A stretch of 62,760 nucleotides of DNA, taken from the IMG/VR virus record IMGVR_UViG_3300044707_000497, positions 1-62,760 of that record; one strand, written 5' to 3'. This DNA comes from a virus. Made by a program: the position numbers and the translations under genes. The notes beneath the pieces were generated by a model. It saw only the letters and a list, made by a program, of their open reading frames with translations. It was not told the DNA's origin and made no database searches. Below are positions 12,003 through 62,760 of this stretch, one piece after another; the stretch's first letter is position 1, and each line of letters starts with the position of its first letter.

Positions 12003-12691
12003 ACCGGGGTAATAAAAGTTACCTGCCCGTTTGCGTCATACGACAAGGCTACCCGCAAGGCGTTCACGCCGCCGCGTGTGTAGGTGATTAAAGTGGGGCC
12101 GTATTGCCCGTTGACGACAGACATTGAATACCCGTTGGCGGGGCTGTAGGCGTCGAAGTTTAAAACTGGGTATTTGCCGTCCACTAAGGCAGGCAGTTTG
12201 TTATTGAGGAGCGTCTGTGTTTCGTCGCTTTCGGTTTTGACCTCGGTCTTGAATGCGGTCAGGAGCGTCTGCGTCTCGTTAAATTCGTTTTGGAGGAGCG
12301 TCTGTGTCGCATCGCTTTCATCTTTGACCTCGGTCTTAAATGCGGTGAGGAGTGTCTGCGTCTCGTTAAACTCAGTCTGAAGGAGCGTCTGCGTCTCATC
12401 ACTCTCGTCTTTGATGAGCTTCCCTAAGTCAACCCCGTCTTCGTAGAAAACTGCAACCTTGTCGGTGTCGCGGTGAACATCGCAGTCCTTGAAATCTGTA
12501 AAATGGATGACCGTATTTCCAGCAACCACGGAAATCTCTGCGGGGTCGTCTATCGAAAAATTGTGGTAAACAAAACCCACCGTCGCATTGACGACGAGCA
12601 GAACGCGCTCGGCGCTCAGTTCAATGCCGACCAGAGTGACCGTGCGGGCGGCGACATCCAGATTAACAGTGCCTTTGAATTGCTGTTTCAT
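11999..12691 (-). CDS. Fibre anchor protein paralogous to the LRR fibre N-terminus
   Basis: 230 residues. Residues 1-100 ([55 protein letters not shown]) closely match the start of the fibre at 4103-6115. They are followed by the same 29-residue coiled-coil repeat ([20 protein letters not shown]). The C-terminal about 55 residues differ and lack LRRs. It is probably a short fibre or adaptor using the same docking site as the LRR fibre. Confidence 0.75.
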
Positions 12692-13637: not shown

Positions 13638-15416
13638 CTAACTCGACAAAAGACAAGGGGAATTTCGCCTTGGGGCAAACTTTTTATCCATCATCCGCCG
13701 CCATGTCGTCCCTGCCCTGTTGCCCGCACCGCCCTCCTGGGGCGGTCGGATGCCGAGCCGTTCCCGAACCACTTCCAGCAAAACAAACGCCGCGTCCGCC
13801 ACGTCAGGCGAGCGACCCATGCGGGCTTTCATATCCGCCTTTGGCTCGACACACAATTTCATGCCCCCTGATTTGCGGGTCTCGAAGTTGCGGGCGGTCA
13901 TCTCCTGCGCGAGGTCGGGGCAGATTCCGCGAAGTTGTCCATTTTGAAGATACTCCTTCGCGCCGAACCAAAGTTCGGTGACTCGGTTGGTGTATTTGTC
14001 TTTCGCCAGAGTCGAGTCGTAGGCCGACAAAGAACGCTCAGTCGGCGAGCCCCCGAAATGCACCCGCAGAAATTCATTGCTCCCTAGGACCCGCGAGAGC
14101 GCATCGCAGAACGGCACGCCGCCGCCCGTGACATCGACGCCGACATATTGAAACCGCACGCGCTCCCGCTCCAGAATAGCGGCAATCTTCTGCGCCACCT
14201 GGAACGTGCGGGGTTCTCGGGAACTGGCCTCGTCCTCGATGTAATGGAAGGTATCAAATGATACTTGCTCATTGCCATCACGGTTCAACCCGTAGGAGCC
14301 GATATAAAGAACGCAGCGGTCGCCACCAGAAACGAAAGATGGATCAATGCCCGCGATGCGAGTCGTAGCGCCTTGCCAGACGGGCGGCTGGTCGCCCTTA
14401 AATTTGATAATCTCGGACTCGGAGTAGATCGCTTTGGAAATTCCTTGAGGCGGCCAGAACCCACGGAAGTCACGCCAGAACATCGGTGAGTCCTCACCTA
14501 GGCGTTCGACGGCATCGTCAATCTTTTCAAATTTTTGGATCGGCCAGAGATTTTCACGGGCGATGTAGTTCGGGTTCCGCAGCGCGTCAAAGTGCAGGCA
14601 AACCCCTCCCAGCTTGGTTTCCCAGCGGTCGTCGTTCACCGAAATCGAAGTCCACCCATCTAGCGGTTCCACAAATTTTCCGAAGGGATCGTAGTAGGAA
14701 ACCGGATTCGCTGCCGCGCAAATATGCAGCACCGCATTGTTGCTCAAGTTCGAGATCGCAGTGTCGAGAAGCGAGTGCGACAATTCACTCAACTCATCCG
14801 CTGCCAGAAAGACTCGCGGAGCTTTCATGCCTCGCATTTTTCCGGTGACTTCGGAGGTTTTTTTAGCCTCAGCGGGGATCAAATAAATCCCAGCCTGCTC
14901 CATGCGGACGCCATCGCGGAGGACGTAGATCGCCGGAGTGGGAGTGTCAGTGAGCTTCGCGGGGCTCACAGGCTTGATCGCGGGCCAATAGCGTTGCACT
15001 GCGCCCCAAACGCGCTTCTTAGAATCGCGGATGGAAGTCGAGGTCAACAGCCCCAGCGTGTGAAAGGGAGCCGCGAGCCAGTTGAGCAAAATCCAAACCG
15101 CCATGAAATCCGACTTACCCGAAGAACCGCAGCCAGCGAACCCGACGAACTGATTCGTGCAACACTCATGCAGCATCTCCTCGGCCCACGGATGCCAAAC
15201 AAAAGGCTCTGTGCTTTTAGAAAAAAACATTTGAGCGGCGCGGCGAAAATTATCTTCGCGAGGTGTGCCGTCCGGTGCCACACTTCGGTAAGCGTGCAAC
15301 TCAATCGTCCAATCCGCCGTCGATTCAGGGTAAACAAACCCATACCGAACTTTGCTTCCTTTAGGGACGGGCGTCTTACCGTCATCGACAAAAATTCCCG
15401 CGCTCTGCTTGAACAT
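13638..15416 (-). CDS. terL: Terminase large subunit
   Basis: 592 residues from the ATG at 15416; an in-frame TTG at 15437 would extend it by seven residues. The N-terminal ATPase has Walker A FAGCGSSGKSD (about residue 95-103) and a Walker B-like segment RVFLAADELSEL near residue 210. The C-terminal RNase H-like nuclease begins at RIAGIDPSFVSGGDR with its first acidic residue in IDPS. The enzyme cuts concatemers and pumps DNA into the prohead. The ATG start leaves the TCTGGACAAA repeats immediately upstream and untranslated. The presumed small subunit lies far away at 43871-44425. Confidence 0.9.
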   Translation of the reverse strand: MFKQSAGIFVDDGKTPVPKGSKVRYGFVYPESTADWTIELHAYRSVAPDGTPREDNFRRAAQMFFSKSTEPFVWHPWAEEMLHECCTNQFVGFAGCGSSGKSDFMAVWILLNWLAAPFHTLGLLTSTSIRDSKKRVWGAVQRYWPAIKPVSPAKLTDTPTPAIYVLRDGVRMEQAGIYLIPAEAKKTSEVTGKMRGMKAPRVFLAADELSELSHSLLDTAISNLSNNAVLHICAAANPVSYYDPFGKFVEPLDGWTSISVNDDRWETKLGGVCLHFDALRNPNYIARENLWPIQKFEKIDDAVERLGEDSPMFWRDFRGFWPPQGISKAIYSESEIIKFKGDQPPVWQGATTRIAGIDPSFVSGGDRCVLYIGSYGLNRDGNEQVSFDTFHYIEDEASSREPRTFQVAQKIAAILERERVRFQYVGVDVTGGGVPFCDALSRVLGSNEFLRVHFGGSPTERSLSAYDSTLAKDKYTNRVTELWFGAKEYLQNGQLRGICPDLAQEMTARNFETRKSGGMKLCVEPKADMKARMGRSPDVADAAFVLLEVVRERLGIRPPQEGGAGNRAGTTWRRMMDKKFAPRRNSPCLLSS

Positions 15417-15417
15417 T

Positions 15418-15668
15418 TCTGGACAAAGTCTGTCCAACTCTGGACAAAGTCAATACCGACTTTGTGAAAACATATAGCCTATAAGAGTTTATACAAAACC
15501 GTAAACGAATTCGAGCCCCGTAGGCTCCGCTCTTTTTTGTCCAAATTTTTTCTGGACAAAAATTCGGTTCTCCTACGCAAGACTACGGGTTTTCCGTTTG
15601 CGGTTGTATAAAAAGTGTAATAGGTTATTACACCTGAAACACGTTTTGTCCAGACTTTCTGGACAAAA
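15418..15668. promoter_or_regulatory. Divergent control region with six TCTGGACAAA sites
   Basis: The decamer TCTGGACAAA or its complement (allowing one mismatch) occurs at 15418, 15439, 15533, 15551, 15644 and 15658. The first two are direct repeats 21 bp apart next to the terminase start. The last two form a perfect 11-bp inverted repeat (15644-15654 and 15658-15668, 3-nt spacer) ending 14 nt before the integrase ATG. A separate dyad, GTGTAATA/TATTACAC, lies at 15615-15633. This pattern fits operators for a shared regulator, or recombinase arm sites. Confidence 0.72.
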
Positions 15669-15682
15669 TCACAAACCAAAAA

Positions 15683-16882
15683 ATGAAAATCCAAACTCAA
15701 AACCCTGACGAAAAAACAACCGTTCTGCGCTGCGGACACGCCAACGTGCGCGTGCAAAAATTAGAGCGCGGGCGCTACACCACCTTCCGACTCTTTTGGA
15801 AAGTGGGACGCAAGACCTACACGCGAGCCTACAATGACGAAGTATCCGCTCTGGCAGAAGCGGAGCGGGTGATACGGCATCTGGCGACATGCGACGGAAA
15901 CGCTACCGCGCTGCGCGGCGAGGATGTGAGCTACTTCAACGAGTGCAAGGAGCGGCTTGGCTCAATCCCCATGCACGCTGCCGTGGAGTTCTATTTGAAG
16001 TTTCACGAGAAGACTTCGCAGAACCCGCAAACTTTCGCGGAGGTGTGGGATTTGTTTTATCAAAAAGTTCAGGAACGCCAACTCTCCAACCGTTACTACC
16101 AGACGCTTCGCCATCATCGCAACGTGTGGGCTCCCGAGTTTGGAAAAAGATTCATCGACACAATTTCCAACGAAGAATACTTGACCTTTTTGCGCGGGCT
16201 CAAATACCAGCCCCGCACGAAACACAATTTATTTGGATCGCTTGTTGCGCTCCTGCGCTTCGCTCGCAAACAGCGTTTCATCAGTCAAGACAAGTTGGAG
16301 ATCGAAGCGGATTTTCCTGCCATCGGTGATGAGACCCCCGAGTTCTACAGCCCGAAAGAACTTCTCGCGGTGTTCGCAGCAACCGACAAGCGATACCTCG
16401 CCTACACGGCGCTGATGGCGTTTGGCGGGTCGCGCCGCTCGGAAGCGGGTAGCCGAAAACTCAAGATGTCAAACATTCTTTTTGAGGAAAAAATGATTCG
16501 CCTCTCGCCCGAGATCACGAAGACACGCACCGGACGCACGCTGGACATCACGCCGAACCTTGAAGCCTGGCTCAAAGAGTTTGGGCCGGAGGATGGGCCG
16601 CTTGTTGCCACACACAAAATCCACCCGCCTGACGCCGACTTGCTCAAGACGCTCGGAGTCCAAACAAAAGACAACGCTCTGCGTCACTCGTTCTGCTCCT
16701 ATCATCTCGCGCTCCATCGCAACTCAGCCATGACCGCCGAGGTCGCTGGAAACTCCCCCACCATGTTAGCCAAGCATTACAAGGCGCTCGTCTCGCGAGC
16801 AGCAGCCGAGGAGTGGTTTGGCATAACCCCTGACAGTGTGAGAAAGTTTGCACTCGAAAAAGGTATTCGGTTAGAGTGGTAA
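15683..16882 (+). CDS. int: Tyrosine recombinase (phage integrase family)
   Basis: 399 residues. An N-terminal arm/core-binding part (residues 1-210) precedes a catalytic domain with GGSRRSEAGSRKL (first Arg, about residue 240), LRHSFCSYHLAL (R334, H335) and AGNSPTMLAKHY, where Y366 is the nucleophile. The usual GH before Ser is here GN (N357), a tolerated substitution in some members. It would catalyse phage integration or resolution of genome multimers. It stands alone, divergent from terminase, with an operator-like inverted repeat just upstream and a large inverted repeat just downstream. Confidence 0.85.
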   Translation: MKIQTQNPDEKTTVLRCGHANVRVQKLERGRYTTFRLFWKVGRKTYTRAYNDEVSALAEAERVIRHLATCDGNATALRGEDVSYFNECKERLGSIPMHAAVEFYLKFHEKTSQNPQTFAEVWDLFYQKVQERQLSNRYYQTLRHHRNVWAPEFGKRFIDTISNEEYLTFLRGLKYQPRTKHNLFGSLVALLRFARKQRFISQDKLEIEADFPAIGDETPEFYSPKELLAVFAATDKRYLAYTALMAFGGSRRSEAGSRKLKMSNILFEEKMIRLSPEITKTRTGRTLDITPNLEAWLKEFGPEDGPLVATHKIHPPDADLLKTLGVQTKDNALRHSFCSYHLALHRNSAMTAEVAGNSPTMLAKHYKALVSRAAAEEWFGITPDSVRKFALEKGIRLEW

Positions 16883-45064: not shown

Positions 45065-45292
45065 TTAGACTTCTTCCCAGCCATCGAACTCCTCTGGAGC
45101 CTTCAGGATAATCTGTTCCTGAATGTCCTCTTCGACTCGGTCTTCGCGTCCGAGGTAGTTGACCTCTCGGTGAAGTTTGACCTTCGCGGCGAGGTCTTGA
45201 AGCGATGAACCCCTGAAGCGAAAACCCGTGGAGGGTTCTTCAAAGTTCCATCCTCCAGGGGGCCATTGATTCGGATTCTTGAGGCGTCTCAT
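45065..45292 (-). CDS. Small conserved-looking protein after the giant gene
   Basis: 75 residues. RRLKNPNQWPPGGWNFEEPS, TGFRFRGSSLQDLAAKVKLH, then EDIQEQIILKAPEEFDGW. This Pro/Gly/aromatic pattern occurs in small phage proteins near structural genes. It overlaps the end of the giant gene by ATGA. It is the last gene of the late run in this window. Confidence 0.65.
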   Translation of the reverse strand: MRRLKNPNQWPPGGWNFEEPSTGFRFRGSSLQDLAAKVKLHREVNYLGREDRVEEDIQEQIILKAPEEFDGWEEV

Positions 45293-48200
45293 AGCGGAGT
45301 GTCCTTGGCTCGTTTGACGGCGGCGTCGGCTGCTTTGATGCGATCCTTGGGAGCGATCTTCTTCGCGGCATCGCTCGGCTCGTATTTCTTGTAGCGCCCG
45401 CTACGAATCATCGCGATGTCCTCCTTGCCGATGCGATTGGCTTTAAGAATTTCCTCGGCCTTCTTCGGAGAGATTTTGCCCAGCCCGATAGCCGCCAGCA
45501 CATCGTCGCGGAAATCAGCGGTGAGGCGGTAGGTCGCGTCGTTGGCTCGTTCGTAGGCATCGGCAATCTGGTCGGGCGAGCGAGTGCCCTTGGAGTTAAA
45601 CTCGCGGGTGAAGAGGGATGAGGCATCGCGGATGTCGCGGCTGAACTTTGAAGCCTTGAATCCAAGAGCCGCTTCGACATCGACCTCGGTGATGCGTTGC
45701 CCTGCTGCCAAGCCGAGGAGTTCGTTGGCGAGATTGTAGGCGCGTCCGCTGTCGCTCACAGCCCCCGCTCCTGCCTTAATGATTCGGCCTGCGGTGTCAA
45801 ATGCCCCAGGGCTGAAAGCCTTCCAAATCCGCTCGGTGGTTTTCGCTGCAATGTTTGCTCCGGTGTCCTGCGGGTTGTAAATCGGGCGTCCGGTGGCGTC
45901 TTGGTTGCGGAGGACATCGACAATCGCTCCGCTGACCAACTGCTCGCTCTTGAATGGACGGATCAATTCGCTTGCCGCCTCCATTGCGCCTCGGGTAATG
46001 CGCTCCATTGCTTCCGCGTCGTCGCGGGCTGTGAGCGAACGCACAAAAGCGCCAGATGCTTTTTTCCAGTAGTCGTAAGGATCGAGGAAACTCACATCCA
46101 CATAGCTCACCTTGCCGTCCTTGTTTTTAGTCAAGAGAAGCTGCGAGTTCTTCTGCCAGTTAGGCAGGAAGCGGCGAAGGCGCTCTTCGTCGTCTCGTCC
46201 AATGCCCGCCAGCGCCATCATGCCAGTTGCCACTGCTCCAGGGCCGAATGCCGCAAACACCATCCCGCGAGCCCTTTTCCAGCCGATAGCCTGTAGCTCT
46301 TTATTGCCTGTTCGATTACCCTCGGTGATCTCGTAGCGGGCGAGCTTCATCAGGTTGATCGAGGTGCGAATGACTTCGGTAGTGAAAGTGATGAATGGAG
46401 CTACAAACGGGAACGCCTTGACCTTATCAAGTGCGGCGGGAGAGAGGCTGTAGGTCGGGCGGATGTCGCGAACGATCTTTGCCGCATGATCTTTGACCTG
46501 TTCGGGGCTCCAGCCTGGCATCGCTTTCGTGTATTTATCGACCTCGGCCATGTAGCCCATGACCTTCCAGAAGTCGTCACTTGAAGCGTAGGCTTTCTGT
46601 GCGGTATCCCATACTGCTCCGGCTGATTTTTGCAGCTTTCCAATCAAGTGATTTGAGAACTGCTCTTCAGTCTTGGAGAAGCGTTTTGCCTCCATGAGTT
46701 GACCAAGCATGTTTCCTACAATCGACTCGCCGATGACACCACGGCGAACGAGTTCCTGCATCTCGTTCATCATCGCCTTTCGGAAATCCGCTTCTTTTGG
46801 GTAGGCGTTAAAGGCGCTGCGGAAGCTCATGTTGAAGGCTGTGCCCATGCGGTCTTTGAGCTTCGGAATGTCGGAGAACCCGAAGTTTCCTGCTGCCACA
46901 TCAAAGAGAATGTTGCCGAGGTTGTTTCGGACTTGCGCGACGGGGGACAGCACGGTCTTCGCCGCCATCGACCAACCCGTGACCTTCGAGAGCGCCCGCA
47001 CCCAAGCGTAATTGTCGGAGACTCCGTTCTGTGGAAACATCTGGTAGAGCGCCTCGACGAGGAGCTTGTCGCCGTGAAGCCCTGCAAGGGGAGCCAGTGA
47101 TTTATTGTTGTCAGAGGAAATTTTCAGGTAGCCCCTAGGGCGGTCTGCTTCAGGGCCGTTGTAGAGCCAGCCTTCTTTTAGGCCCAACCCGCGAAGATCG
47201 GAGAGGAACTGGTGGTTGGCTACGAGAGAGGACATCTTCATCACGCTCTTGGCGTAGTTGATCGTAGGGTCTTCATAGCGGCCCCAGAGGGCTTGAATCT
47301 CGGGGGAGATGTTGCCGCGAGTGTCGAAAATCGAGAGGTCTTTTTGCCCAGGGATGCGCCCGCGCAAGATCACGCTGCCCATGCCGTCTTCGCCGATAGC
47401 GAGGAGGTCGTCTATGGCTTTGTCGATCTGCTCCTGCTTGGCTGTGCCCTTGGTCTGCGCCTGCGCGTCGGCCTTGGAAATAAACCCGCCTTCGCTCTCG
47501 GTCTGGCGGATGAGTTCGGCGGCGTTGCGTTGCTCGATGTTGCGCTTGATAAGACGCTCGGCGGCCTGCATGACCTTGGTGTTTTCCCGCACCTGCTTGG
47601 CCCACTTTTCATTGTCGAAGATTTCGTAGGAGCGGTGGAGGTAGATGCCGAGATTAGCTTCCACGGTCGCAGCCATGCTGGGATCAAGGATGCCCGAATC
47701 TTTGAGCATCGCTGAGTAGTAGGCGATATGTTCGTTCATCTCGCTGACCGCATCGGCTACATTGGCTGGGAGCGCGGCGAGCGCGGCCCGTTGCTTGACC
47801 TTGAATGCCTCGCGGTTCTTGGCGAGGTGGGCGGCTTCCAATGTGTTTGCCTCCTCCTCGTCGATCTCGCGCATCCGGCGCACTTCGGAACGCTGGGCTT
47901 GGGTGAGCGGGTTGTCGAGGTTGCCGAGTGCCGTATTCATTGTCTCGGTTGAGACTTCGACCCCTGACTTCTTGGCGGCTTTGACGGCGCTAACGAGGCG
48001 CGTCGAAAGAGTGTCGATCACGCGGGCGGCGGCTGTGATCTGCTGGCGCGATGCCCGCCACTTGTCGCCCGCCTGTTTGTCGAGCTTGCCATCGGGCGAA
48101 AGCGCCCCGCCTGCCGTGTAAGTCCCGCCGTTAAATGTCGTCTTCGACTCCGCTCCCGTGAGCTTGGCGATCATCTTCATCGCCTCGCCTGCGGGTGACA

Positions 48201-51200
48201 TCGGCGCTTTTGTCATAGCCCATGGCTCGACAAGGATAGCGTCTTCCGGCGCGATATTTTCGGTTGAATACGGCTCAACCGCTTTTCGTTGATCCTCTGT
48301 AAATTCTATTCTTGCCTCTACATCACGGGACTCAATTTCTCCTGCTATTTTTTTGTAAATTTCAAAATTGGCATTCTTGTTCATTACCCACCCAGCACCA
48401 TATTTTTTCTCAGCTTCAAAAACATGTTTGGCGATTGGGTTCTCTATGGTCTCCTTACTTACCCCATATTTTTTGTAGAGGCCGTCTAGTTGTTTTTTTA
48501 AACTATCTACGAGTGACTTTTGACGTGTAACTTCTGCGGCATCTACTTCACGCCCGAAAACGATAAACTTTTTCTTTTTAGGGGTCTCAGCGATAATTTT
48601 TTCTGCTTTTTCAAGCCATGAACTGAGCTGTGTTTTTTCAGCTAACAATTCTGCTATCCTGCGGGAGTTTTGTTTCATCTCCATAGGGACGACTGTTGAA
48701 GGACTGCCCCCCTGCGCAAAGCCCTCGCGGTCTTGTATCCAATGTTGAACTTCGTGCAATAAAGTCGCTAACGAGTCTTTGCTGATTTGGTCGTTTTGAT
48801 CTAATATGACTGAAGAAGATATAACATCTCCGACCCGCAGAGTGCCGTCCGCCAGCCGCTCAAGGGCGACCTTAAACTTTCTCCCCGACTGAATGTTGCC
48901 CCCGATTGGAAAAAATGGAATCTCTTTGGCTTCTGGATAAGCATCGTAGAGAGCCTTGTGGTTAAGGACATCTGCGAGTTTTAAATAACCCCCGCTGCCT
49001 ATTCTCTCCGTAACACTGTCAAGAGAAACACTGCCAAATACTTCTCCGCCAAAAGCTCGTTTAGCTTTTTTCCGGTAATCGTCCATAGAGACAAACCCCG
49101 CCTTGTCGTCAGGTATCTCCCACCGCATCTTGCCATCATACTTTCCAGGGAACCAACCCGTCACTGCGCGAATCTCCTCAGATGTTTTCCCGTCTGCCGC
49201 CATTGCCCTAGCGGCCTCCAAACTGTCGCGCTTAAATTGCGGCATATCCGCTTTCTCTCCTCCGTAAGTCGCACGAGGCGCGGGCACGCCGATCATTTGC
49301 TCCACGGCGCGTTGCACCCCAGCTTCGGTTTGCGGGGTTTGGATGAACGCGAGGACATTGTCGAGCCCTTGGGTGAGGAGGCTGTCGCCGCTTACATCGA
49401 AGCCGTAGATGATGTCTTTGAAGTAGGCGAAAATTTGATCGAGGAGATTGCGGATGTAGCCGCCCTTCTTCGGCAGACCTTGCATTGGCGCGGCTTGCTG
49501 AAGGAAGATTTGAAACTCTGGATTCGTGAGAATCTCGGTGATGAACTCATCCATGTTGGTGAGCCCGTAGAACAAGTCGCCTGGGGCACGGCGAGCTTTA
49601 GCCTGGCTGAGTGTTTGACCTGCTCTCGTGTATCGCCCTAGAGCGAGTCGCTCGGCATGCTTAAAGATTTTCTCCATATCGCGGAAAGCGGCTCGCTCGA
49701 CACGGTTGAGCGGATACCCCTTCTGCGTTTTCCAGAAAAAGACATGGTGCAAGGCTTCGTGAACAATCGTCTGAGCAATGCCGCCTTCGTGGGGGCTGTC
49801 CAAGTTGACGCTAATTCTTCCGCTCTTTGCTTGAGTGCCTGGCTCGTAGAGTCCAGCATATTTTTCAGTGGTCTCCGTGAAGCGCACCTTCGAGAAATCA
49901 AACCCGAGATCAAGGAGCATCTGTGCCACATGGCGAAGTGGCGCGGGAACAGTGTCGTCGCCCGCAATGTTCGAGAGCATCTTTGGCACATCCTGCATGT
50001 AACCCATCTCGATCTCATTCGGTGTCAGGATTCCTTCGTCAATGAGCTTGTCGTAATCTTCTTCAGTGATTCCGTTGTAGAAAAGAATGTCCGATACGTT
50101 AGCGGCACGAAGATCAGCTTGGTCTTGATCGGCTTGATCTTGGTTTTTAGCTCTGATGATTCGCGGCTTTGCTGCTGGGCTCTGAACTTTTTGAAACTCT
50201 ACCGCATTTCCGTTTTCGTCCGTGTCGAACGAATAAACGGGGTAGCGGTTAATCAACTCCGAAAGCTCTTCGCGGATAGCGTCATCTTCTGTAATCGAAG
50301 GTTTAACTTCTGTTTCAAAGTCTGTTCCTCGAAAATAGGCTCTTTCAGCTTGATCTCTTTTTTGTTCTGCGGCTTTTAATTCTTGTCCCAGTTCTTGAGA
50401 TACCCTTCCAGTGTCGGCTCCTTGTTCATTGACTCGCGACAAGACCGCTCGATAATTAGATTTAGCCTGGTCCCAGTCGCTTTCTAATTTTGTCACCCGC
50501 TCAAGTGACCTGTCTATATCTTCTTGGGTGACGCCAGGTTGTCCATACCCATCTCTATCGACTAAAATTTCTACGATACGAGGCTTTGACTCTTTTGAAA
50601 TGGTCCCTTCATTGCTGTTATACCCTTTAGACTTATACTCAACTGATTGAGGTTCTATAACTAGAGTAATGCCCCCCGCACCGATTGATTGATTTGGCTT
50701 AGTGCTGTCAATAGTGATGTTGGTTCCGTTACGAATCCCATTCAAAATTTTAGGGATGTCTTCGGCGTCTCTTACAGTATGAAGAACGTGGGGCGTCTTA
50801 AACGCTGCGGGGCTCTGTGGCGCGTCCTCCGATTCCATCTTGCTTTCTTGTTCCAATAACTTCTCAAACGCCGCTTTCTCTGCCGCTATCTCTTCTTCAG
50901 TCTTCGGAAGCTCGGTTGCTTCGCGCATCTCGCGGTTTGTCGGGCGGCCTGCTTTTGCACGCTTTGCTTTTTTAGCCGTGGGCTTGGTTACTTGGTTATT
51001 ACCTTCTGGCTTAACTTCTGCCTCGCCCTGGGGCGCGGGAATCGAACTTTTATCACTCTGGCTTTTCGCAGCCTTGGCTGCGGTCTTTGGCTCCGCTTTG
51101 GCTTCAGCCACTCCACGAACGGCTTTTAGAAGCTCACTCGGGGCAGCTTTATACTTGGTGCCACGGAAGGTGAAGTTCCATGAATCCATGAAGGCTTTTC

Positions 51201-54200
51201 CAAGCTCCGAGGAAGGATTGATGTTTACTCCAATGAGCTTGAGGATCGCGTTGAAGGCATCGCGGATCATGCCGTTGAAAGTGCGCTTGTCGGCGTTGAC
51301 CGCTCCGAAACCAAGCTGGGAAAGAAGTTTAACGAAGTCGGGGCTTCCCGTCATCTCAACAATAAACTCGTCGAGGTTCTGGAGTCCGTTGTATCGGCGG
51401 GAGCCTTCCTCGCCGCTTGCGATCATAGCCTTCAGAGCCTTCTCGTAATTAGCGAGGCGGGCTTCCGGCGTGGTCGCTCCGGCCTTGTCGGCTGCTGCCT
51501 TCATCGCGGGGCTGGCGTTGCCTGCCTTGAGAATGGCAGCACGGCGCATCCGTTCTAGGTCTTTGATGATGCGGTCTTCCTGCGCGGTGGTCTTTACCTT
51601 GCCGTGGACTTTTGCAAAAGTAGCGACGTGGGCGAGTTCATGTAGCACAGTCTGCAAAGGAGTCTCGCGGTCGTGGGCTTGATCGAGATTGATGTAAACG
51701 CCGAACGCACTGTAATCGGCATTCCGCCCTAGAAGACCGCCCCAGACTGCACGATCCTTGGTTCCAGTCTTGAGGAAGTTCGCGGCTTGGACTTCGATGT
51801 TGTCGAGCTTGAGCCCGCGCTTTTCCATTTCAAGAAAAGCCTTGGCGCGAACCTGCATGTCGCGTGGTGCTTTGTTCTTTGGATCGGCGAGGCGGGTCAG
51901 GAGTTCACGGGTGGATTCAAACGCTCCGAACCGGACGAGTTCGTTGAAGTTCAGGTCGCGGAGTTTGCCGTAGTCGCCTTCCTTTTCAGCGGCGAGGATT
52001 GCATCGGCGTAAGCCCCGACGAGTTCCTGGTCGCCCAATTCAACGAGGCGTTCGATGCCTGGAGCCACGGAAACCACGGCGTCCTGTGCGGCTGCGGCTT
52101 TGTTCTCGTCGGCTCGGGAGTTGTAAGCGAGGTAGGCGCGATCCACTTCGGCATTGCTCATGCCGACCATTTGCTCGTCGCTCAACCCAACCTTGGCCTG
52201 CAAGAAGCGGCGCTTGATGCGCTGGAGCTTGGGGCTGCTCGGCTTGCGCCCTGGGGCACCTTTGATTTCTTTGGCTGCTCCCTTGGCTTTGCCTGGGGAC
52301 TGTGGGCTCCTTCTCTGGTAGGCTGCGGAAATCAGTTCTGTCGTTTTTTGTTTTACTTTGTTTTCCGCTATTTTTTTAGCCGTTGGCTGATCTATCCCTC
52401 GCTCAATAATTTTTGCTTGAGCCTCTTCGATTCGCGGTTTTTCAAACGCGTCCAACATGCCTTGTTGCTTTTCAGCATCAGGCTCATTTAAATAATCGTC
52501 GGCGAACTTCTCGTCTGGGGTCAGTGCTACTTGCTCTACAGCCGCTTCTGCTTCTGCGACTGGAGTTGCGGTCGCCGCTTTGAAAGTTTTGGTCTCTTGG
52601 TCATAGACCGTTTTTGTTTTTTTAGGCTCCGCTGTTTTAGTTTCCGCTTTGGGGGCTTTTGCCGCCGCATTGTTTAGCGCAAAAAGCTGAACGACTTGCT
52701 GTGAGGCGTCATCATCGGAAAGCGCGGCAATCTCATCTTCCGAAAGCCCTTCTGACTTCAGGATGTTTTGACGGTCTTGAAAAGACAGCTTGGCGTTCTG
52801 TTCTTTGGCAGCGGCTATGTTTTCGGCTGAGATTGCAACGCGGCTTTTCGGTTCTGCTCTTCTCGGGATAGCGTCATCAGCCTTGACACCAGCAACTTCT
52901 TCTGCCAACTCAGCGGCTCGTCGTTCAACGGAAGCGAGAAGTTGCTTGAAGGTTCTTCTGTCTCGGAGGAAGAGGAGTTGTTCTTCGACTGTTCGTTTGA
53001 GTTCATATTGGGATGTTCTATCTGGGGCGTTGAGGTAATCAAGCGCAAGGAGTTCAAGTTTAGTAAGCGATTTTTTCCATTCTTCAAGTTTTTCGAGGAA
53101 CCCTGACTCAAGCGCAGTCTTTGCCAGCTTGTCGGCTTCGACCATTGTTTCCAGTTCTTCAACCGACAATTTGCCTGGGGCTGCTAGTTCTACCTTACTC
53201 GCTCCTTTTTTCCCTTGTTTTGAGTCTTGAATGAGTTGACTCGCGGTAAGATTGTCTCCTTGAGCATCTTCTCCATCCTCTTTTTTAGCGTCCATCGAGA
53301 CATCATCTGGCCGTAAACTAGCGAATTTTAAAGCCTCAGTTTTAACTTGTTCGAGCGCGGCGATATGTTTACTAGGCGACGCAAAAATACTAAGCTCGCC
53401 GCCTAATGCTGTTACCGTTCGGTTTACAAGTTTGGTTTCTTCAGTGTTCTGTGGCCGCCCTTCGAGAACCAATTTCGGTATTTCAGACGCATTCGTGCCT
53501 GAAACAAAAAGCTCGGCGGTTTTAGCAACCAATCCCGCTGCCCCTTTGACCTCGGCACCTTTCTTAGGCTCCAAAGATATTTTAGACAGCGCATTTTGAA
53601 TTTTATTAGCTGCGAGCTTTCGGTATTCTTCCTGCCCTTGGAGTCCCAACCCACTTAAACTATCGCTGGCAATTTGTGACTCTACGCTTTTGAACCACGG
53701 TTTTGAGATCACCGAAAACAGCATCTCGATTAGCGGAGAAGCCCCTTGAATTCTTTTAGCTGCTTTGGTTGTAGCGTCGGTGCCAGCTTTTTCTCGGCTC
53801 GCTCTGTTTTGGTTCGAGGCGTCAACCTTGATGTTCTTGATGGCTTGGTTCTTTTTGTAGGCGTTCTCAAACGAACCTTGAGGGTCTGTGGCGTTGAACG
53901 TCCCGACATTTATCCCATTTTCTTCATACTCGGCTGTGACCACTATAGAGTAGTCCTTACCCTCGACGGGTCGAACCGTCATCCAAGCTGGGGCAGGGGT
54001 ATTATTTGGAACCCGAACCTCGACTCCTTGGTTCATAACCCGAAGAACATTGAGTTTTTCTGCCTGCTGCGTTCTTTCCGCGTTCTGCGGCCTCACCTTT
54101 TTCGGCGCGTATGTGAAGAAAGAGCGGTTTACCGTCGTCCCATCTTTTTTCCTAAAGAGTTTTGTGGATACCGTGAAAGGTTTACCCAGTCCGTCTTTGC

Positions 54201-56727
54201 GTTTGTCTTCGAGAATCTCCCCGCCGTCCTCATCGGTTTCTCCAGTTGGCTTAAACCCAGCGGCACCTAAATCGTTTGTCTCCTCTAGGACTGCAATTTT
54301 AGCTTTTTCTTGGGTCGGCTCGGGGTCGGTAGCTGTGGCGGTAGTGACATTCTGCACGGTCGCGGGGGACATCTTCTGTTTTTTCCCCTTCTGCGCTACT
54401 ACGATCCCGCCGTCTTCAGTTTTTTCGACGAACTCGCCAGTCGTCACCCCGTTTGTGATAACCTGCCCCTGGGTCAAACTATCTACAATGGCTTGTTGCT
54501 GCTCCGGCGTGCGGCTTTCTAAAAGTTTCCGCTGCTCTTCCTTATCCGCTTCGATCTTAGCTTTATGTTCAGCTTGAAGTTGTTCGAGTTTTGTATCAAC
54601 CGCGTCAGGCTCTTCGTCTTCGTCGCTACCCTCCTCGTATTCATCTTCATCTACTACAGCGTTTTCTTCCTCGTTAAGCTCTGCAATTTCTGATTGCGTT
54701 TCGGTCACTTCGGGGGTAGCAGGAGCGGGAGTTGAACCCGCATCTTCAGGATATGAGCCTGATGACGTAGCCGTTTGTCCATCCTGCGGTGTGATTTCGT
54801 CAGAAACTTGTGTTTTTACAGATTCAACCTTGGTCTTAGCCTCCTCAAGCTGCTTGATTGAATCTTCAAGTGCTTTGTCCCCCTCTGCACCAAAAGTTGT
54901 TGTTTCGAGGAGGTCACGACGGGAAGCAATCTCTTTGTCAATCTCCTCGATGGGTGTGCTGTCCGTAAGTATGGGCGCGGGGGGAGGAGGAATTTGAGAT
55001 TGTTTTTTAGCGGCAGCCGTTGCTTTAGCCGCCTCGACGATGTTCTCGTCATCAACCCCGTCGTTCCGCAAATCTTCAATCAGTTCGTCCACCGCATCAG
55101 CCGGAATGCCTGCTTCGACGACCTTCTTCTTGGTCTCGTTCTGCTTTTTAGCCTGAATCACTGATTCATTGCCGCTAAGATCAAGAATTTCAAGGTCGCT
55201 ATCATCAGTCTTTCCCTGCTCTCGGTCATCAATGCCGTCTCCGTCTTCATCAACGATCTCACCTCGGGCTTTGGCAGCAGCAGTTTCCGCACGGTCAAAT
55301 AAGCTCGCACCTTCTTGGGTGTTTGGGAAAACAAACAGCTTGCCGTCTTGGACGATGCCGCCGCGAGCGTTAGCGAGCTTGTCAAAAATCTCTTGCTTCG
55401 CGTTCTCTACGACCCAGCCAGTATCGCCAGTTTCCGCGACGTTCCACCGACGCATGACAAGGCCGCCATCGAGGGTCACGGAATCTTTGTCGTAAACAAT
55501 GTCGCCAGAGGGCGCTGCCGCTCCCGCATCTGGAACTTCAGGGTCTTCAAGTGGCTTTTGAACGAGCCCCTTGAGCGCGTTGGCTGTGACTGGGGCAAGG
55601 CGCTCCACCACGCCCCCCGCACCGCCGATGGCGCTGCCGACAAGCGAGCCCGCCGCCATTGCGTTGAGGCGCTCGCGTTTTGCTTCCTCGGAGTTGATGT
55701 CGAAATTCGGGTCGTTTTCAGCACGGGCCATCTGCTCAAGGTAAGTCTGCGGCAACTCTTCGGCAGGGCCTTCAAGCGCGAGACCTTTTGCAACGCCCTT
55801 GCCGACTTCTTTAAGCAGGGAGCCTTCGGCGGTGTTCTTGGCAACATTAACCCCGAAAGCACGGCGGATGAAAGGCGATCCGATGAGCGTATCCGTGAAG
55901 CCTTCGATAGCTCCAGCAGGGATACCGTATTTCAGCGCCAGCCCTGCATCTTCAGTGTCCCCGTAAATTGATCCAGTCTCCATGCCGACACCCGTCGCCA
56001 GGTTTCCAGCAGCAGCCCCGGCTATCGGAGCGATACGAGCTGTTGCTACTTGCCCTAGAGCGCCCTCGGCGGCTTCCCTGGTTAGCCCGCCTTCCATCAG
56101 ACGCTTGGCGGCATATTTCATTCCGCCGCGAGATGCGACTGCGTTAGCTACGGTAACGGCAGCAGCTTTTTCAGTAAGACCGTTAGCAACGGCTTTTTGA
56201 ACTGCGCTTTGAACGACGCCTTTTGCAAATTGTTTTCCCGCAAGACCGCCTGCTCCACCGAGAGCAATAGTAGGGATAAGTTGGGGAGCCTGCTCAAGAA
56301 GCGTTCCGTAGGCCCACTTCGCCGCGTCTCCAACGCCTTCAATGTCTGTGAAGTCCACCATCCCCGCTTCCTCGCGGGCTATGGCTGCCTCCCTCATGTT
56401 ATCGTTGAAGCCTTCGAGCCCCAACTTCTTGACGCTCTCAACCCCCGCCAAGTCTCCAGCGAGTCCAACCACGCCCATGCCAAGCCCTTGAAGTTGATCG
56501 ACGCCCGCGCCGAACATCTTGCCAGTGAACTCTCCGAGGGTTACTGGCGGCTTGCGGTAAACATCGAGGTTCTTTATGACGTTACCTTCGCTATCACGGC
56601 TTACGATTTCAAATTGATCCTCCCAGCCTCCCTCCGGCGGTTTTTCTTCTTTTGGCGATTCTGGCTCTGGTTTATCCCACCCCAACTCTTCCCGTGTAAC
56701 CGGAACCCAGTTTTTATCAGATAGCAT
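45289..56727 (-). CDS. Giant virion polyprotein (large polyvalent protein) with three HExxH motifs
   Basis: 3812 residues. Residues about 80-390 are rich in Gly/Ala with hydrophobic segments and could insert into membrane during DNA ejection. Residues about 390-950 are acidic and Pro/Thr-rich with coiled-coil. Two related zincin-like modules follow: VLHELAHVATF near 1695 and IVHEALHHVFF near 2322, each with a later NxDEFIxE segment. A third HExxH (LLHEVQHWIQDREGFAQGGS, near 2657) resembles domains of large polyvalent proteins (LPD). The C-terminal region (about 3440-3700, GMVFAAFGPGAVATGMMALA, LDPYDYWKKASGAFVRSL) resembles LPD38. Such proteins are packed in the head and injected with the DNA to act on the host. 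A tRNA-like sequence lies within it. Confidence 0.8.
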   Translation of the reverse strand: MLSDKNWVPVTREELGWDKPEPESPKEEKPPEGGWEDQFEIVSRDSEGNVIKNLDVYRKPPVTLGEFTGKMFGAGVDQLQGLGMGVVGLAGDLAGVESVKKLGLEGFNDNMREAAIAREEAGMVDFTDIEGVGDAAKWAYGTLLEQAPQLIPTIALGGAGGLAGKQFAKGVVQSAVQKAVANGLTEKAAAVTVANAVASRGGMKYAAKRLMEGGLTREAAEGALGQVATARIAPIAGAAAGNLATGVGMETGSIYGDTEDAGLALKYGIPAGAIEGFTDTLIGSPFIRRAFGVNVAKNTAEGSLLKEVGKGVAKGLALEGPAEELPQTYLEQMARAENDPNFDINSEEAKRERLNAMAAGSLVGSAIGGAGGVVERLAPVTANALKGLVQKPLEDPEVPDAGAAAPSGDIVYDKDSVTLDGGLVMRRWNVAETGDTGWVVENAKQEIFDKLANARGGIVQDGKLFVFPNTQEGASLFDRAETAAAKARGEIVDEDGDGIDDREQGKTDDSDLEILDLSGNESVIQAKKQNETKKKVVEAGIPADAVDELIEDLRNDGVDDENIVEAAKATAAAKKQSQIPPPPAPILTDSTPIEEIDKEIASRRDLLETTTFGAEGDKALEDSIKQLEEAKTKVESVKTQVSDEITPQDGQTATSSGSYPEDAGSTPAPATPEVTETQSEIAELNEEENAVVDEDEYEEGSDEDEEPDAVDTKLEQLQAEHKAKIEADKEEQRKLLESRTPEQQQAIVDSLTQGQVITNGVTTGEFVEKTEDGGIVVAQKGKKQKMSPATVQNVTTATATDPEPTQEKAKIAVLEETNDLGAAGFKPTGETDEDGGEILEDKRKDGLGKPFTVSTKLFRKKDGTTVNRSFFTYAPKKVRPQNAERTQQAEKLNVLRVMNQGVEVRVPNNTPAPAWMTVRPVEGKDYSIVVTAEYEENGINVGTFNATDPQGSFENAYKKNQAIKNIKVDASNQNRASREKAGTDATTKAAKRIQGASPLIEMLFSVISKPWFKSVESQIASDSLSGLGLQGQEEYRKLAANKIQNALSKISLEPKKGAEVKGAAGLVAKTAELFVSGTNASEIPKLVLEGRPQNTEETKLVNRTVTALGGELSIFASPSKHIAALEQVKTEALKFASLRPDDVSMDAKKEDGEDAQGDNLTASQLIQDSKQGKKGASKVELAAPGKLSVEELETMVEADKLAKTALESGFLEKLEEWKKSLTKLELLALDYLNAPDRTSQYELKRTVEEQLLFLRDRRTFKQLLASVERRAAELAEEVAGVKADDAIPRRAEPKSRVAISAENIAAAKEQNAKLSFQDRQNILKSEGLSEDEIAALSDDDASQQVVQLFALNNAAAKAPKAETKTAEPKKTKTVYDQETKTFKAATATPVAEAEAAVEQVALTPDEKFADDYLNEPDAEKQQGMLDAFEKPRIEEAQAKIIERGIDQPTAKKIAENKVKQKTTELISAAYQRRSPQSPGKAKGAAKEIKGAPGRKPSSPKLQRIKRRFLQAKVGLSDEQMVGMSNAEVDRAYLAYNSRADENKAAAAQDAVVSVAPGIERLVELGDQELVGAYADAILAAEKEGDYGKLRDLNFNELVRFGAFESTRELLTRLADPKNKAPRDMQVRAKAFLEMEKRGLKLDNIEVQAANFLKTGTKDRAVWGGLLGRNADYSAFGVYINLDQAHDRETPLQTVLHELAHVATFAKVHGKVKTTAQEDRIIKDLERMRRAAILKAGNASPAMKAAADKAGATTPEARLANYEKALKAMIASGEEGSRRYNGLQNLDEFIVEMTGSPDFVKLLSQLGFGAVNADKRTFNGMIRDAFNAILKLIGVNINPSSELGKAFMDSWNFTFRGTKYKAAPSELLKAVRGVAEAKAEPKTAAKAAKSQSDKSSIPAPQGEAEVKPEGNNQVTKPTAKKAKRAKAGRPTNREMREATELPKTEEEIAAEKAAFEKLLEQESKMESEDAPQSPAAFKTPHVLHTVRDAEDIPKILNGIRNGTNITIDSTKPNQSIGAGGITLVIEPQSVEYKSKGYNSNEGTISKESKPRIVEILVDRDGYGQPGVTQEDIDRSLERVTKLESDWDQAKSNYRAVLSRVNEQGADTGRVSQELGQELKAAEQKRDQAERAYFRGTDFETEVKPSITEDDAIREELSELINRYPVYSFDTDENGNAVEFQKVQSPAAKPRIIRAKNQDQADQDQADLRAANVSDILFYNGITEEDYDKLIDEGILTPNEIEMGYMQDVPKMLSNIAGDDTVPAPLRHVAQMLLDLGFDFSKVRFTETTEKYAGLYEPGTQAKSGRISVNLDSPHEGGIAQTIVHEALHHVFFWKTQKGYPLNRVERAAFRDMEKIFKHAERLALGRYTRAGQTLSQAKARRAPGDLFYGLTNMDEFITEILTNPEFQIFLQQAAPMQGLPKKGGYIRNLLDQIFAYFKDIIYGFDVSGDSLLTQGLDNVLAFIQTPQTEAGVQRAVEQMIGVPAPRATYGGEKADMPQFKRDSLEAARAMAADGKTSEEIRAVTGWFPGKYDGKMRWEIPDDKAGFVSMDDYRKKAKRAFGGEVFGSVSLDSVTERIGSGGYLKLADVLNHKALYDAYPEAKEIPFFPIGGNIQSGRKFKVALERLADGTLRVGDVISSSVILDQNDQISKDSLATLLHEVQHWIQDREGFAQGGSPSTVVPMEMKQNSRRIAELLAEKTQLSSWLEKAEKIIAETPKKKKFIVFGREVDAAEVTRQKSLVDSLKKQLDGLYKKYGVSKETIENPIAKHVFEAEKKYGAGWVMNKNANFEIYKKIAGEIESRDVEARIEFTEDQRKAVEPYSTENIAPEDAILVEPWAMTKAPMSPAGEAMKMIAKLTGAESKTTFNGGTYTAGGALSPDGKLDKQAGDKWRASRQQITAAARVIDTLSTRLVSAVKAAKKSGVEVSTETMNTALGNLDNPLTQAQRSEVRRMREIDEEEANTLEAAHLAKNREAFKVKQRAALAALPANVADAVSEMNEHIAYYSAMLKDSGILDPSMAATVEANLGIYLHRSYEIFDNEKWAKQVRENTKVMQAAERLIKRNIEQRNAAELIRQTESEGGFISKADAQAQTKGTAKQEQIDKAIDDLLAIGEDGMGSVILRGRIPGQKDLSIFDTRGNISPEIQALWGRYEDPTINYAKSVMKMSSLVANHQFLSDLRGLGLKEGWLYNGPEADRPRGYLKISSDNNKSLAPLAGLHGDKLLVEALYQMFPQNGVSDNYAWVRALSKVTGWSMAAKTVLSPVAQVRNNLGNILFDVAAGNFGFSDIPKLKDRMGTAFNMSFRSAFNAYPKEADFRKAMMNEMQELVRRGVIGESIVGNMLGQLMEAKRFSKTEEQFSNHLIGKLQKSAGAVWDTAQKAYASSDDFWKVMGYMAEVDKYTKAMPGWSPEQVKDHAAKIVRDIRPTYSLSPAALDKVKAFPFVAPFITFTTEVIRTSINLMKLARYEITEGNRTGNKELQAIGWKRARGMVFAAFGPGAVATGMMALAGIGRDDEERLRRFLPNWQKNSQLLLTKNKDGKVSYVDVSFLDPYDYWKKASGAFVRSLTARDDAEAMERITRGAMEAASELIRPFKSEQLVSGAIVDVLRNQDATGRPIYNPQDTGANIAAKTTERIWKAFSPGAFDTAGRIIKAGAGAVSDSGRAYNLANELLGLAAGQRITEVDVEAALGFKASKFSRDIRDASSLFTREFNSKGTRSPDQIADAYERANDATYRLTADFRDDVLAAIGLGKISPKKAEEILKANRIGKEDIAMIRSGRYKKYEPSDAAKKIAPKDRIKAADAAVKRAKDTPL
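54717..54788 (-). tRNA. tRNA-like sequence, anticodon CAU, inside the giant gene
   Basis: 72 nt on the coding (minus) strand. Acceptor stem 6 of 7 pairs (mismatch C1-T72), D-stem 3 of 4, anticodon stem TCAGG/CCTGA with loop CTCATAT, variable loop AGAT, T-stem GCGGG/CCCGC with loop TTCAACT. The invariant bases T8, A14, G18, G19, A21, T33, G53, T54, T55, C56, A58 and C61 are all present, and A15 can pair with T48. CCA is not encoded. In frame it reads as part of a Pro/Ser/Thr linker (residues 647-670) of the polyprotein. The anticodon means Met or Ile2. Confidence 0.75.
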
Positions 56728-60477: not shown

Positions 60478-61572
60478 CTAGGCTACTCCTTTCAGATAAA
60501 CTTGTGTCCAAGAAAGCAACCTCCCTTGGAGGAAAAGAAACCCCGCGCAATTTGCAGGGATGCCGAGCGCGATTGCAGCGGCAGCGGTATAGATAGAAGG
60601 GTTTGGCATAATGTTTTTGCCTGCGGCGTGGAGGAACTGGGTGATCTCTTGGATTTTTGTGTGAAGGTCCGAGCGGTGTTTCGCGAGCCAGCCGTCCACT
60701 TTTACCCAGAGCGGGTCGGGCTCACCTCTATGAAATGAATTTCCCCAGCCTGGGATTCTCAAACCGTCTTCAAACATGAGCTTGACGCCTTGCAGCGAGT
60801 GGCTTGACGCAAGTATCTCGTAGGATTGTTCCAGTGGCGCGTGCGTTCCCCCTAGGGTTAGCAGACCAGAGGCGATACTGTTTGTCCACGAGCCGTTGCC
60901 CGCCGAGCAAGCTGCGACAGCGTTGGAAGAAATGTTCCCACGGAAGGCGCTTTCAGCGTGCGCTTCTAAAACCAACTGCAACAACTCTTCCTCCCGCTCG
61001 CTCAGAGGGGAAACGCGCCCTGGGATAGCCGCCCCACCGCGTAGTGCCCCGTGGATGAACTGAGGCTCCATCTGCACGTTGAGGCTGCGGAGAACTTCAA
61101 ATTGTTCTTTTGGAAACTCAACGCCGCCAAGGCAATGATGCCAGATTTTTTCAACCACCTCGGACTTGTCCAAGTTTTTGAAGTTCACTACAAGCGCGAG
61201 CCCTTTAAGCTCCTCCAAGGCTTCAAGTGTGCGATCTACAAATTCATCAAGCGGAAGCTCTTCCACGGTCTTGCCGGACACTTTTGCAAACGACTCTAAA
61301 ACAGAATCTTGGTCGCGCTCCACAATGACCACACGGAGGCTCGGCATCAACTCAAGCAACTCTTTTGCTTTCAACGCCGCGCCGCAATCCGAATTGCCTA
61401 CATACTTTGCCCCAGCGGACATAACCTCGGCCATGCCTTTCGCGTCCAACCCTCTATTGCTAAGTTCATGGTGGCAAAGTGAATCTCCCCTCGTAAAGAG
61501 GTTTGCCAACCAAGCCGTGCGGGAGCGGGGTAGCCCCAGGATTAGAAAATTTCGCTCGGATTGGATTAGCAT
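60478..61572 (-). CDS. Sulfotransferase-like P-loop domain fused to a citrate-synthase-like domain
   Basis: 364 residues from ATG 61572; an upstream in-frame ATG at 61635 would overlap the preceding gene. The N-terminal domain has NFLILGLPRSRTAWLANLF (about 8-26), the PAPS-binding loop of sulfotransferases, and VVIVERDQDSVLESF. From about residue 175 the protein follows citrate synthase: the AGNGSWTNSIASGLLTLGG block with GGTHAPLE (H244), IPGWGNSFHRGEPDP and NIMPNPSIYTAAAAIALGIP, then FLFLQGRLLSWTQVY. In citrate synthase the later two catalytic residues are His and Asp; here they are N278 and S326. It is probably not a citrate synthase but a degenerate or repurposed one. Confidence 0.72.
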   Translation of the reverse strand: MLIQSERNFLILGLPRSRTAWLANLFTRGDSLCHHELSNRGLDAKGMAEVMSAGAKYVGNSDCGAALKAKELLELMPSLRVVIVERDQDSVLESFAKVSGKTVEELPLDEFVDRTLEALEELKGLALVVNFKNLDKSEVVEKIWHHCLGGVEFPKEQFEVLRSLNVQMEPQFIHGALRGGAAIPGRVSPLSEREEELLQLVLEAHAESAFRGNISSNAVAACSAGNGSWTNSIASGLLTLGGTHAPLEQSYEILASSHSLQGVKLMFEDGLRIPGWGNSFHRGEPDPLWVKVDGWLAKHRSDLHTKIQEITQFLHAAGKNIMPNPSIYTAAAAIALGIPANCAGFLFLQGRLLSWTQVYLKGVA

Positions 61573-61597
61573 AACCGTGTATTTATTACACCATACC

Positions 61598-62760
61598 CTA
61601 GCGCATGGCAAGGATTGATCTGTTGTGAACGCCAAAAACTTGTGACTTGAAGTATTGCTGCGTCATCTGGTCGGCGAGCAATTTCTTGCCTGCGTCAAAC
61701 GAGCCTGCCTTACCTTGGGTAAGGATAGCCAGAGCGGCCTGCGACACGGCTTCGTAGTTGTTCAGATACATGGAGTCTGTATCCGCCAGATGCGGCACGA
61801 ATCGGCGCTTGGCGAGGTAACGAACAAGGGTCTCCTTGTTTTCTTGCGGCACTGAAACAAAGTATCTGCGCTTCGTGATTCCGTCATCAGGATCGACAGC
61901 CTCTCCTCGGTCGCTGAACCCGCTGCGCCAAGGCTCCTCAGTAGTCTTGATGCCTGTCCCTCCACGCATGTATTCAGCGAAGCGGTCGTGGACTGGACGG
62001 GGATCACCGTCGAAGGTCACAAACAAGACTGTCTCGACCTCGCGGGGCAGGAATACCTCGCCGGATTGCTCCAGGGTAAAAGAGTAGTCTGCGACTGTGC
62101 CGACCCACTTGCCGCTGTTCATCAAGGCTTCCTCGGCGCTCGTCACAGCGCGTTTGATTGCGTTGTTTGAGAAAGTCAACGCCCCATCGAACCCCAATCC
62201 AATGCGCCCCCAGTAGTAGCCAAAGCTGTTCGGAGAGCCAAGCGAAAGCTCCATGCGAAGGGTGCGTCGGAAAGTTTCGTCGTTTGCCACGACATCGCGC
62301 TCGATTAAATCCAACGCGGATTTCTTGAGCCCTAGGGAAAGTTCCGACTGTCCTTCCAGAGCGGCCAGGTAACTTTCCACCAAGAGACGCTTTTGCTCGT
62401 AGGTTGCTGGCGGGGTTGGAATGTCATCGTCATCGCTACGAGCCACAAATTTTTGATGTGAGATCGCGTCGCTCACCGCTTGGTTTAGCAGCTTCGTCAT
62501 GCGCGAAGTCGGAACCTTGAGCCCCGTGGGGAGTTCATTGTGCAACCGCCCGACCTCCCCGATTACGGCTTTGCGGGACTTTCCTACCACAGCGATAATA
62601 TCTCTTTCAATCAAGTCCAGCGCCTCTTTTTTGAGCGCCATGGCAGGCTCAACTGCCGCTTGGGCTGTGGCGATGTAGCTCTCAACGAGTTTCTTCTTTA
62701 CCTCAAAAGAGACTGTCAGGCTCGGCCCGTCCAACTCCTCCCGCCTTTGTAAAAACTCCA
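61598..62760 (-). CDS. Virion structural protein with internal repeats, 5' end cut by window edge
   Basis: The frame is open to the right edge. The first possible start codon inside the window is a TTG at 62734, but the gene probably begins outside. Two tandem modules share LVESYxAxxxxxxxLxLKKx and ALDLIERDxxA, near residues 12-45 and 103-137 counted from that TTG. The C-terminal part has NNYEAVSQAALAILTQG, then LADQMTQQYFKSQVFGVHN, reminiscent of head-tail or neck proteins that follow the capsid in podoviruses. No capsid signature. Role inferred from place. Confidence 0.55.
   Translation of the reverse strand, partial: EFLQRREELDGPSLTVSFEVKKKLVESYIATAQAAVEPAMALKKEALDLIERDIIAVVGKSRKAVIGEVGRLHNELPTGLKVPTSRMTKLLNQAVSDAISHQKFVARSDDDDIPTPPATYEQKRLLVESYLAALEGQSELSLGLKKSALDLIERDVVANDETFRRTLRMELSLGSPNSFGYYWGRIGLGFDGALTFSNNAIKRAVTSAEEALMNSGKWVGTVADYSFTLEQSGEVFLPREVETVLFVTFDGDPRPVHDRFAEYMRGGTGIKTTEEPWRSGFSDRGEAVDPDDGITKRRYFVSVPQENKETLVRYLAKRRFVPHLADTDSMYLNNYEAVSQAALAILTQGKAGSFDAGKKLLADQMTQQYFKSQVFGVHNRSILAMR

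Follow-up and report, generated by a model that had tools for sequence, protein, structure and literature searches.

A complete, initiator-like tRNA read in frame within a giant virion gene of an uncultured virus

Introduction

Transfer RNA (tRNA) genes are common in phages, and integrases often target the 3′ ends of tRNAs. In bacteria, the initiator tRNA is marked by an unpaired 1:72 position and by the pairs G2:C71, C3:G70, and A11:U24, which serve as formylation and initiator determinants. Here, we describe a complete start-codon-type tRNA from an uncultured virus (IMG/VR record IMGVR_UViG_3300044707_000497), whose largest structural gene encloses the tRNA in frame. The whole stretch of DNA that was analyzed, positions 1 to 62,760 of that record, is referred to as the window.

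Initiator tRNA is a known target of VapC toxins, which cut it in its anticodon stem-loop (PMC7180214); where VapC cuts the anticodon, phages are noted to refrain, in general, from carrying a tRNA-fMet of their own (PMC10264068). Some phage tRNAs have altered anticodon loops, which have been proposed as a means of escaping anticodon nucleases (eLife 2023;12:e85183, PMC10264068). In the part of the literature that our search covered, we found no description of a complete tRNA lying in frame within a protein-coding (phage) gene.

A tRNA inside an open reading frame

ARAGORN predicts a single tRNA in the 62.8-kb window, a tRNA-Met(cat) at 54715-54788(-). The only Rfam family detected is likewise tRNA (RF00005), at 54717-54788(-), with a full-length match to the model (positions 1-71 of 71) that scores 55.1 bits where the gathering score is 29; free-standing viral tRNA matches range from 48.6 to 71.3 bits. 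The tRNA lies wholly within a giant open reading frame (ORF), on the same strand, and no stop interrupts the 3,812 codons. It occupies nucleotides 1940-2011 of the gene, or codons 647-671, and is translated as QDGQTATSSGSYPEDAGSTPAPA; the in-frame context reads TPQDGQTATSSGSYPEDAGSTPAPATPE. The peptide is an ordinary, disordered-looking Ser/Pro/Thr linker. Coordinates of this and the other features are collected in the table.

An earlier note on this DNA, made from the sequence alone, had claimed a CAU cloverleaf at this position on the coding strand and an in-frame Ser/Pro/Thr linker, and both claims hold. Per-position numbering recovers all the invariant bases that it listed (T8, A14, G18G19, A21, T33, G53, T54 T55 C56, A58, and C61), perfect anticodon and T stems, and 6 of 7 acceptor pairs; the note had passed over an A-C apposition at 13:22 of the D stem. 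In total, 19 of the 21 cloverleaf pairs form, the exceptions being C1·U72 and A13·C22, and A15:U48 takes the place of the usual G15-C48 tertiary pair. Being full length and having all invariant bases, the element shows neither the truncation, the broken stems, nor the loss of invariant bases that would mark a tRNA pseudogene or fragment. The A13 mismatch is not clearly a sign of decay, since 13:22 is also unpaired in the tRNAs of L010 and Sinorhizobium phage Phosso, both of which share the D-stem GACA/xGTC with the nested tRNA. The minimum free energy fold of the segment (-25.2 kcal/mol, z=-2.3) is not the cloverleaf; the centroid fold (-24.9) contains the acceptor, anticodon, and T stems.

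Table. Features of the window discussed in the text
Feature	Coordinates	Strand	Evidence
Complete tRNA, anticodon CAU, initiator-like	54717..54788	-	ARAGORN, Rfam RF00005, pair-by-pair check
Anticodon CAU, positions 34-36	54753..54755	-	ARAGORN and per-position numbering
Hypervariable linker, ~residues 573-725, tRNA in the middle	54553..55011	-	No DNA homology to L019 (BLASTN)
Giant virion structural protein gene, 3,812 aa, LPD23 domain, two HExxH-type motifs	45289..56727	-	ORF, Pfam, PHROG
Integrase (recombinase) gene, kept in four related phages	15683..16882	+	phrog_1, E=1.8e-18; 63-71% identity in relatives
Conserved candidate attachment/recombination region, intergenic, in which TCTGGACAAA is repeated in direct and inverted orientation	15416..15690	.	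Alignment, repeats

The anticodon loop itself bears on the reading frame. The loop CTCATAT (A37 U38) is read as TCA GGC TCA TAT (...Ser Tyr); a host-type loop, CTCATAA, would read TCA GGC TCA TAA in the same frame and end in a stop. The frame thus stays open because the phage-type U38 creates no stop and because the 72-nt unit amounts to 24 codons. As in the phage tRNAs proposed to evade nucleases (PMC10264068), the anticodon loop departs from the host form; unlike in those tRNAs, U38 also keeps a reading frame open. U38 would suit a role in evading nucleases, but we do not conclude that it serves to evade VapC, since the search pattern by which most U38 tRNAs in our comparison were selected itself included U38 and the frame needs U38 as well.

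Initiator-like character and tRNA relatives

The nested tRNA carries the marks of a bacterial initiator. Position 1:72 lacks a Watson-Crick pair (C1-U72), and G2:C71, C3:G70, and A11:U24 are all present. At 29-31:39-41, where three G-C pairs in a row are a mark of bacterial initiators, the anticodon stem has A29:U41, G30:C40, and G31:C39, with two of the three pairs G-C; the alphaproteobacterial initiators that we examined have the same stem. An elongator or Ile2 tRNA with a CAU anticodon is less likely, given C1-U72, A11:U24, and an anticodon stem of initiator type.

The closest bacterial matches are alphaproteobacterial initiator tRNAs, at about 75-77% identity (Sphingobium, Azospirillum). 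Like the nested tRNA, the tRNA-fMet of these genera has the CAU anticodon, the unpaired 1:72, the pairs G2:C71, C3:G70, and A11:U24, and the anticodon stem UCAGG/CCUGA with A29:U41. In contrast to them, the nested tRNA has C1-U72 rather than C1-A72, U38 rather than A38, a flipped 12:23 pair, A15:U48 for G15:C48, and a shorter variable loop; it also has no encoded CCA and sits in a protein gene. Most of the stem differences are compensatory (4:69, 12:23, 51:63, and the tertiary pair 15:48), which argues that the sequence evolved as a tRNA. The one nested copy was set against free-standing phage and bacterial tRNA-Met in an alignment of 16 sequences; 94% of the cells were paired, versus 37-47% in slid controls, and double changes at 15 of the 21 pairs revealed covariation.

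Phage relatives share the anticodon arm. Nine viral contigs of IMG/VR contain the 19-nt arm TCAGGCTCATATCCTGAAG, and ARAGORN calls a tRNA-Met in every one of them; the nested tRNA is therefore of phage type. The same arm and the CTCATAT loop also occur in the tRNA-Met of Clavibacter phage CN1A and Nodularia phage kac65v151. None of the nine contig tRNAs lies within a comparable long ORF, unlike the nested tRNA, which is enclosed in an 11.4-kb gene.

Two other records came up among the phage tRNAs. MT835874, the top tRNA match in the phage collection, was set aside; it lies in a transfer-messenger RNA (tmRNA)/tRNA cluster of bacterial appearance. In Nodularia phage vB_NpeS-2AV2 (L031), a hypothetical gene, 2AV2_95, is annotated at 781-885, where sister phages have tRNA-Met, and is likely a mis-annotation.

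A hypervariable linker in a phage group

We sought relatives of the giant gene with N-terminal and middle baits in IMG/VR and in bacterial genomes; the bacterial genomes yielded no locus. IMG/VR yielded five loci, four close and one distant. Four contigs have the N-terminal part of the gene, at 56-66% identity in the best segment, terminases 84-91% identical to that of the window, and the same integrase. In view of the shared gene start, terminase, and integrase, these contigs and the window belong to one phage group.

Only L019 spans the linker. Its giant gene is unbroken and homologous to that of the window on both sides; BLASTN homology stops near residue 572 and restarts near residue 726, and the linkers between are unalignable, in protein alignment too. 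Neither ARAGORN nor Rfam detects a tRNA in L019. The contigs L002, L003, and L018 end within their own linkers, each again different; since the linkers of the relatives all differ, the linker is hypervariable. That three of the four related contigs break here is probably a repeat-caused assembly effect. The linker of L018 turns into an APVEA peptide repeat at ~12240-12356, where the contig ends.

The gene around the linker encodes a virion component. Its product matches phrog_22602, a virion structural protein (E=5e-45), and Pfam PF18838, LPD23 (E=5e-14); the label "polyprotein" given to it in the earlier note is not supported by these matches. Phages of Cellulophaga, Pelagibacter, and Pseudoalteromonas have large virion proteins that are 25-30% identical to the C-terminal part, and the homologue in phi18:3 was annotated from virion proteomics. 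The giant genes of Cellulophaga phi13:2 and phi18:3, Pelagibacter HTVC027P, phage 023Pt_psg01, and Pseudoalteromonas vB_Pun_Y3, with which only the C-terminal part is common, contain no tRNA. Two HExxH-type motifs occur in the giant protein, HELAH near residue 1696 and HEALH near residue 2323, and the sequence suggests two metallopeptidase-like domains.

Explanations for the nested tRNA

The cloverleaf, its nesting in an open and homologous gene, and its absence from the sole linker-spanning relative, L019, are established observations. We place about even confidence in the explanation that this is a captured, intact phage initiator-like tRNA that still yields some product. In its favor, the Rfam score falls among those of free-standing viral tRNAs, and the cloverleaf is intact although, of 63 single synonymous changes possible in the segment, 36 would break a pair or touch an invariant or anticodon base; the intact state points to either recent arrival or continued selection. 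In this scenario, a phage-type initiator-like tRNA gene would have entered the disordered, hypervariable linker of the giant virion gene, and U38 and the length of 24 codons would have kept the gene open, with the tRNA translated as a Ser/Pro/Thr linker. Part of the long structural-gene transcripts would then fold, host RNase P and a 3′ tRNA nuclease would cleave them at both ends of the tRNA, and CCA would be added; the earlier note, too, had suggested that RNase P and RNase Z could cut the mRNA here. The phage would gain an extra initiator tRNA at the loss of those messenger RNAs (mRNAs), and uncut transcripts would yield the virion protein. A stronger form of the same explanation posits a dual code under simultaneous selection for tRNA and protein, where a working initiator tRNA is excised from the virion coding sequence and each transcript is either translated or cut; we regard this form as rather unlikely.

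Several observations weigh against a tRNA product. A nested tRNA is known in one genome only, no second carrier was found, and the examined parts of the four related contigs contain no tRNA anywhere, so that the phage group does not need one. There is no encoded 3′ CCA (A73 is followed by CCC), and neither a sigma-70-like promoter nor a terminator was found beside the tRNA. Folded with ~65 nt of flank on each side, the segment is of unremarkable stability (z=+0.7). It would also be costly to cleave the transcript of a large structural gene.

Some of these points are shared by the rival to which we assign a little less than an even chance: a recent passenger, where illegitimate recombination brought an intact tRNA into a linker that accepts nearly any open sequence, and where this tRNA now serves as protein linker only and will decay as a tRNA. 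The variation of the linker among relatives, the lack of a tRNA in L019, and the missing promoter and CCA all fit a passenger. So do the nine free-standing phage tRNA-Met, each of which is free of stops in one or more frames of its own strand; capture in frame is thus not itself improbable and needs no selection. Against a passenger stands the lack of a close donor, which a new arrival should resemble. The nine contigs with the TCAGGCTCATATCCTGAAG arm are not close elsewhere in the tRNA. No IMG/VR contig matches ATGCGGGTTCRANTCCCGCTCCTGC exactly, a scan that would miss diverged donors, and the exact 30-nt 3′ half is absent from 84,980 bacterial and archaeal genomes, where diverged donors would again be missed and the true host may be unsampled; these limits weaken the argument.

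The earlier note had offered an attachment-site relic of a tRNA-targeting integrase as its alternative. Such a relic would arise if recombination between the integrase and a host tRNA were followed by imprecise excision, with a tRNA copy staying behind in the gene. The nested tRNA resembles tRNA-targeted phage attachment sites in being a tRNA sequence in an integrase-bearing phage, and the integrase is conserved in the phage group. Unlike such sites, it is complete, including the 5′ half, lies 37 kb from the integrase, and has no identical host 3′ half among the genomes searched. The window holds no second tRNA copy, and integration at the nested tRNA would split the virion gene. The integrase has a better candidate beside it: the terminase-integrase region is conserved in five of five phages and is full of repeats. 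We therefore consider a relic very improbable; the tRNA-grade cloverleaf inside the giant gene, on which two scanners agree, is the part of that first interpretation that stands. Least probable by far is that a Ser/Pro/Thr linker resembles a tRNA by chance or that the sequence is driven by the protein. The peptide would suit this reading, but the E value of the Rfam match (3.9e-9, computed for the whole window against every Rfam family) excludes a chance resemblance, and the exact anticodon arm and the initiator-specific pairs are shared with known tRNAs.

Integrase region and other genes

Four repeats of the TCTGGACAAA type occur in the terminase-integrase region, along with copies in inverted orientation and a larger inverted repeat; the TCTGGACAAA repeats could be likened to arm-type integrase sites. 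Within it, TTCGAGCCCCGTAGGCTCCGC resembles a tRNA 3′ end and could not be tied to any tRNA, and a candidate attachment core near 15508-15530 has no informative match in plasmids. The integrase itself has no Pfam match. Elsewhere in the window, the predicted protein at 60478-61635(-) weakly matches a sulfotransferase domain in its N-terminal part and, more surprisingly, the citrate synthase C-terminal domain (E=3e-7).

Implications

If the nested tRNA is active, translation would clash with tRNA processing on a single RNA in a directly testable way, and one sequence would meet the demands of tRNA and protein together. A mere passenger would be informative as well: it shows how RNA genes can become linkers of giant virion genes, and why phage-type U38 loops fit this frame and host-type loops do not.

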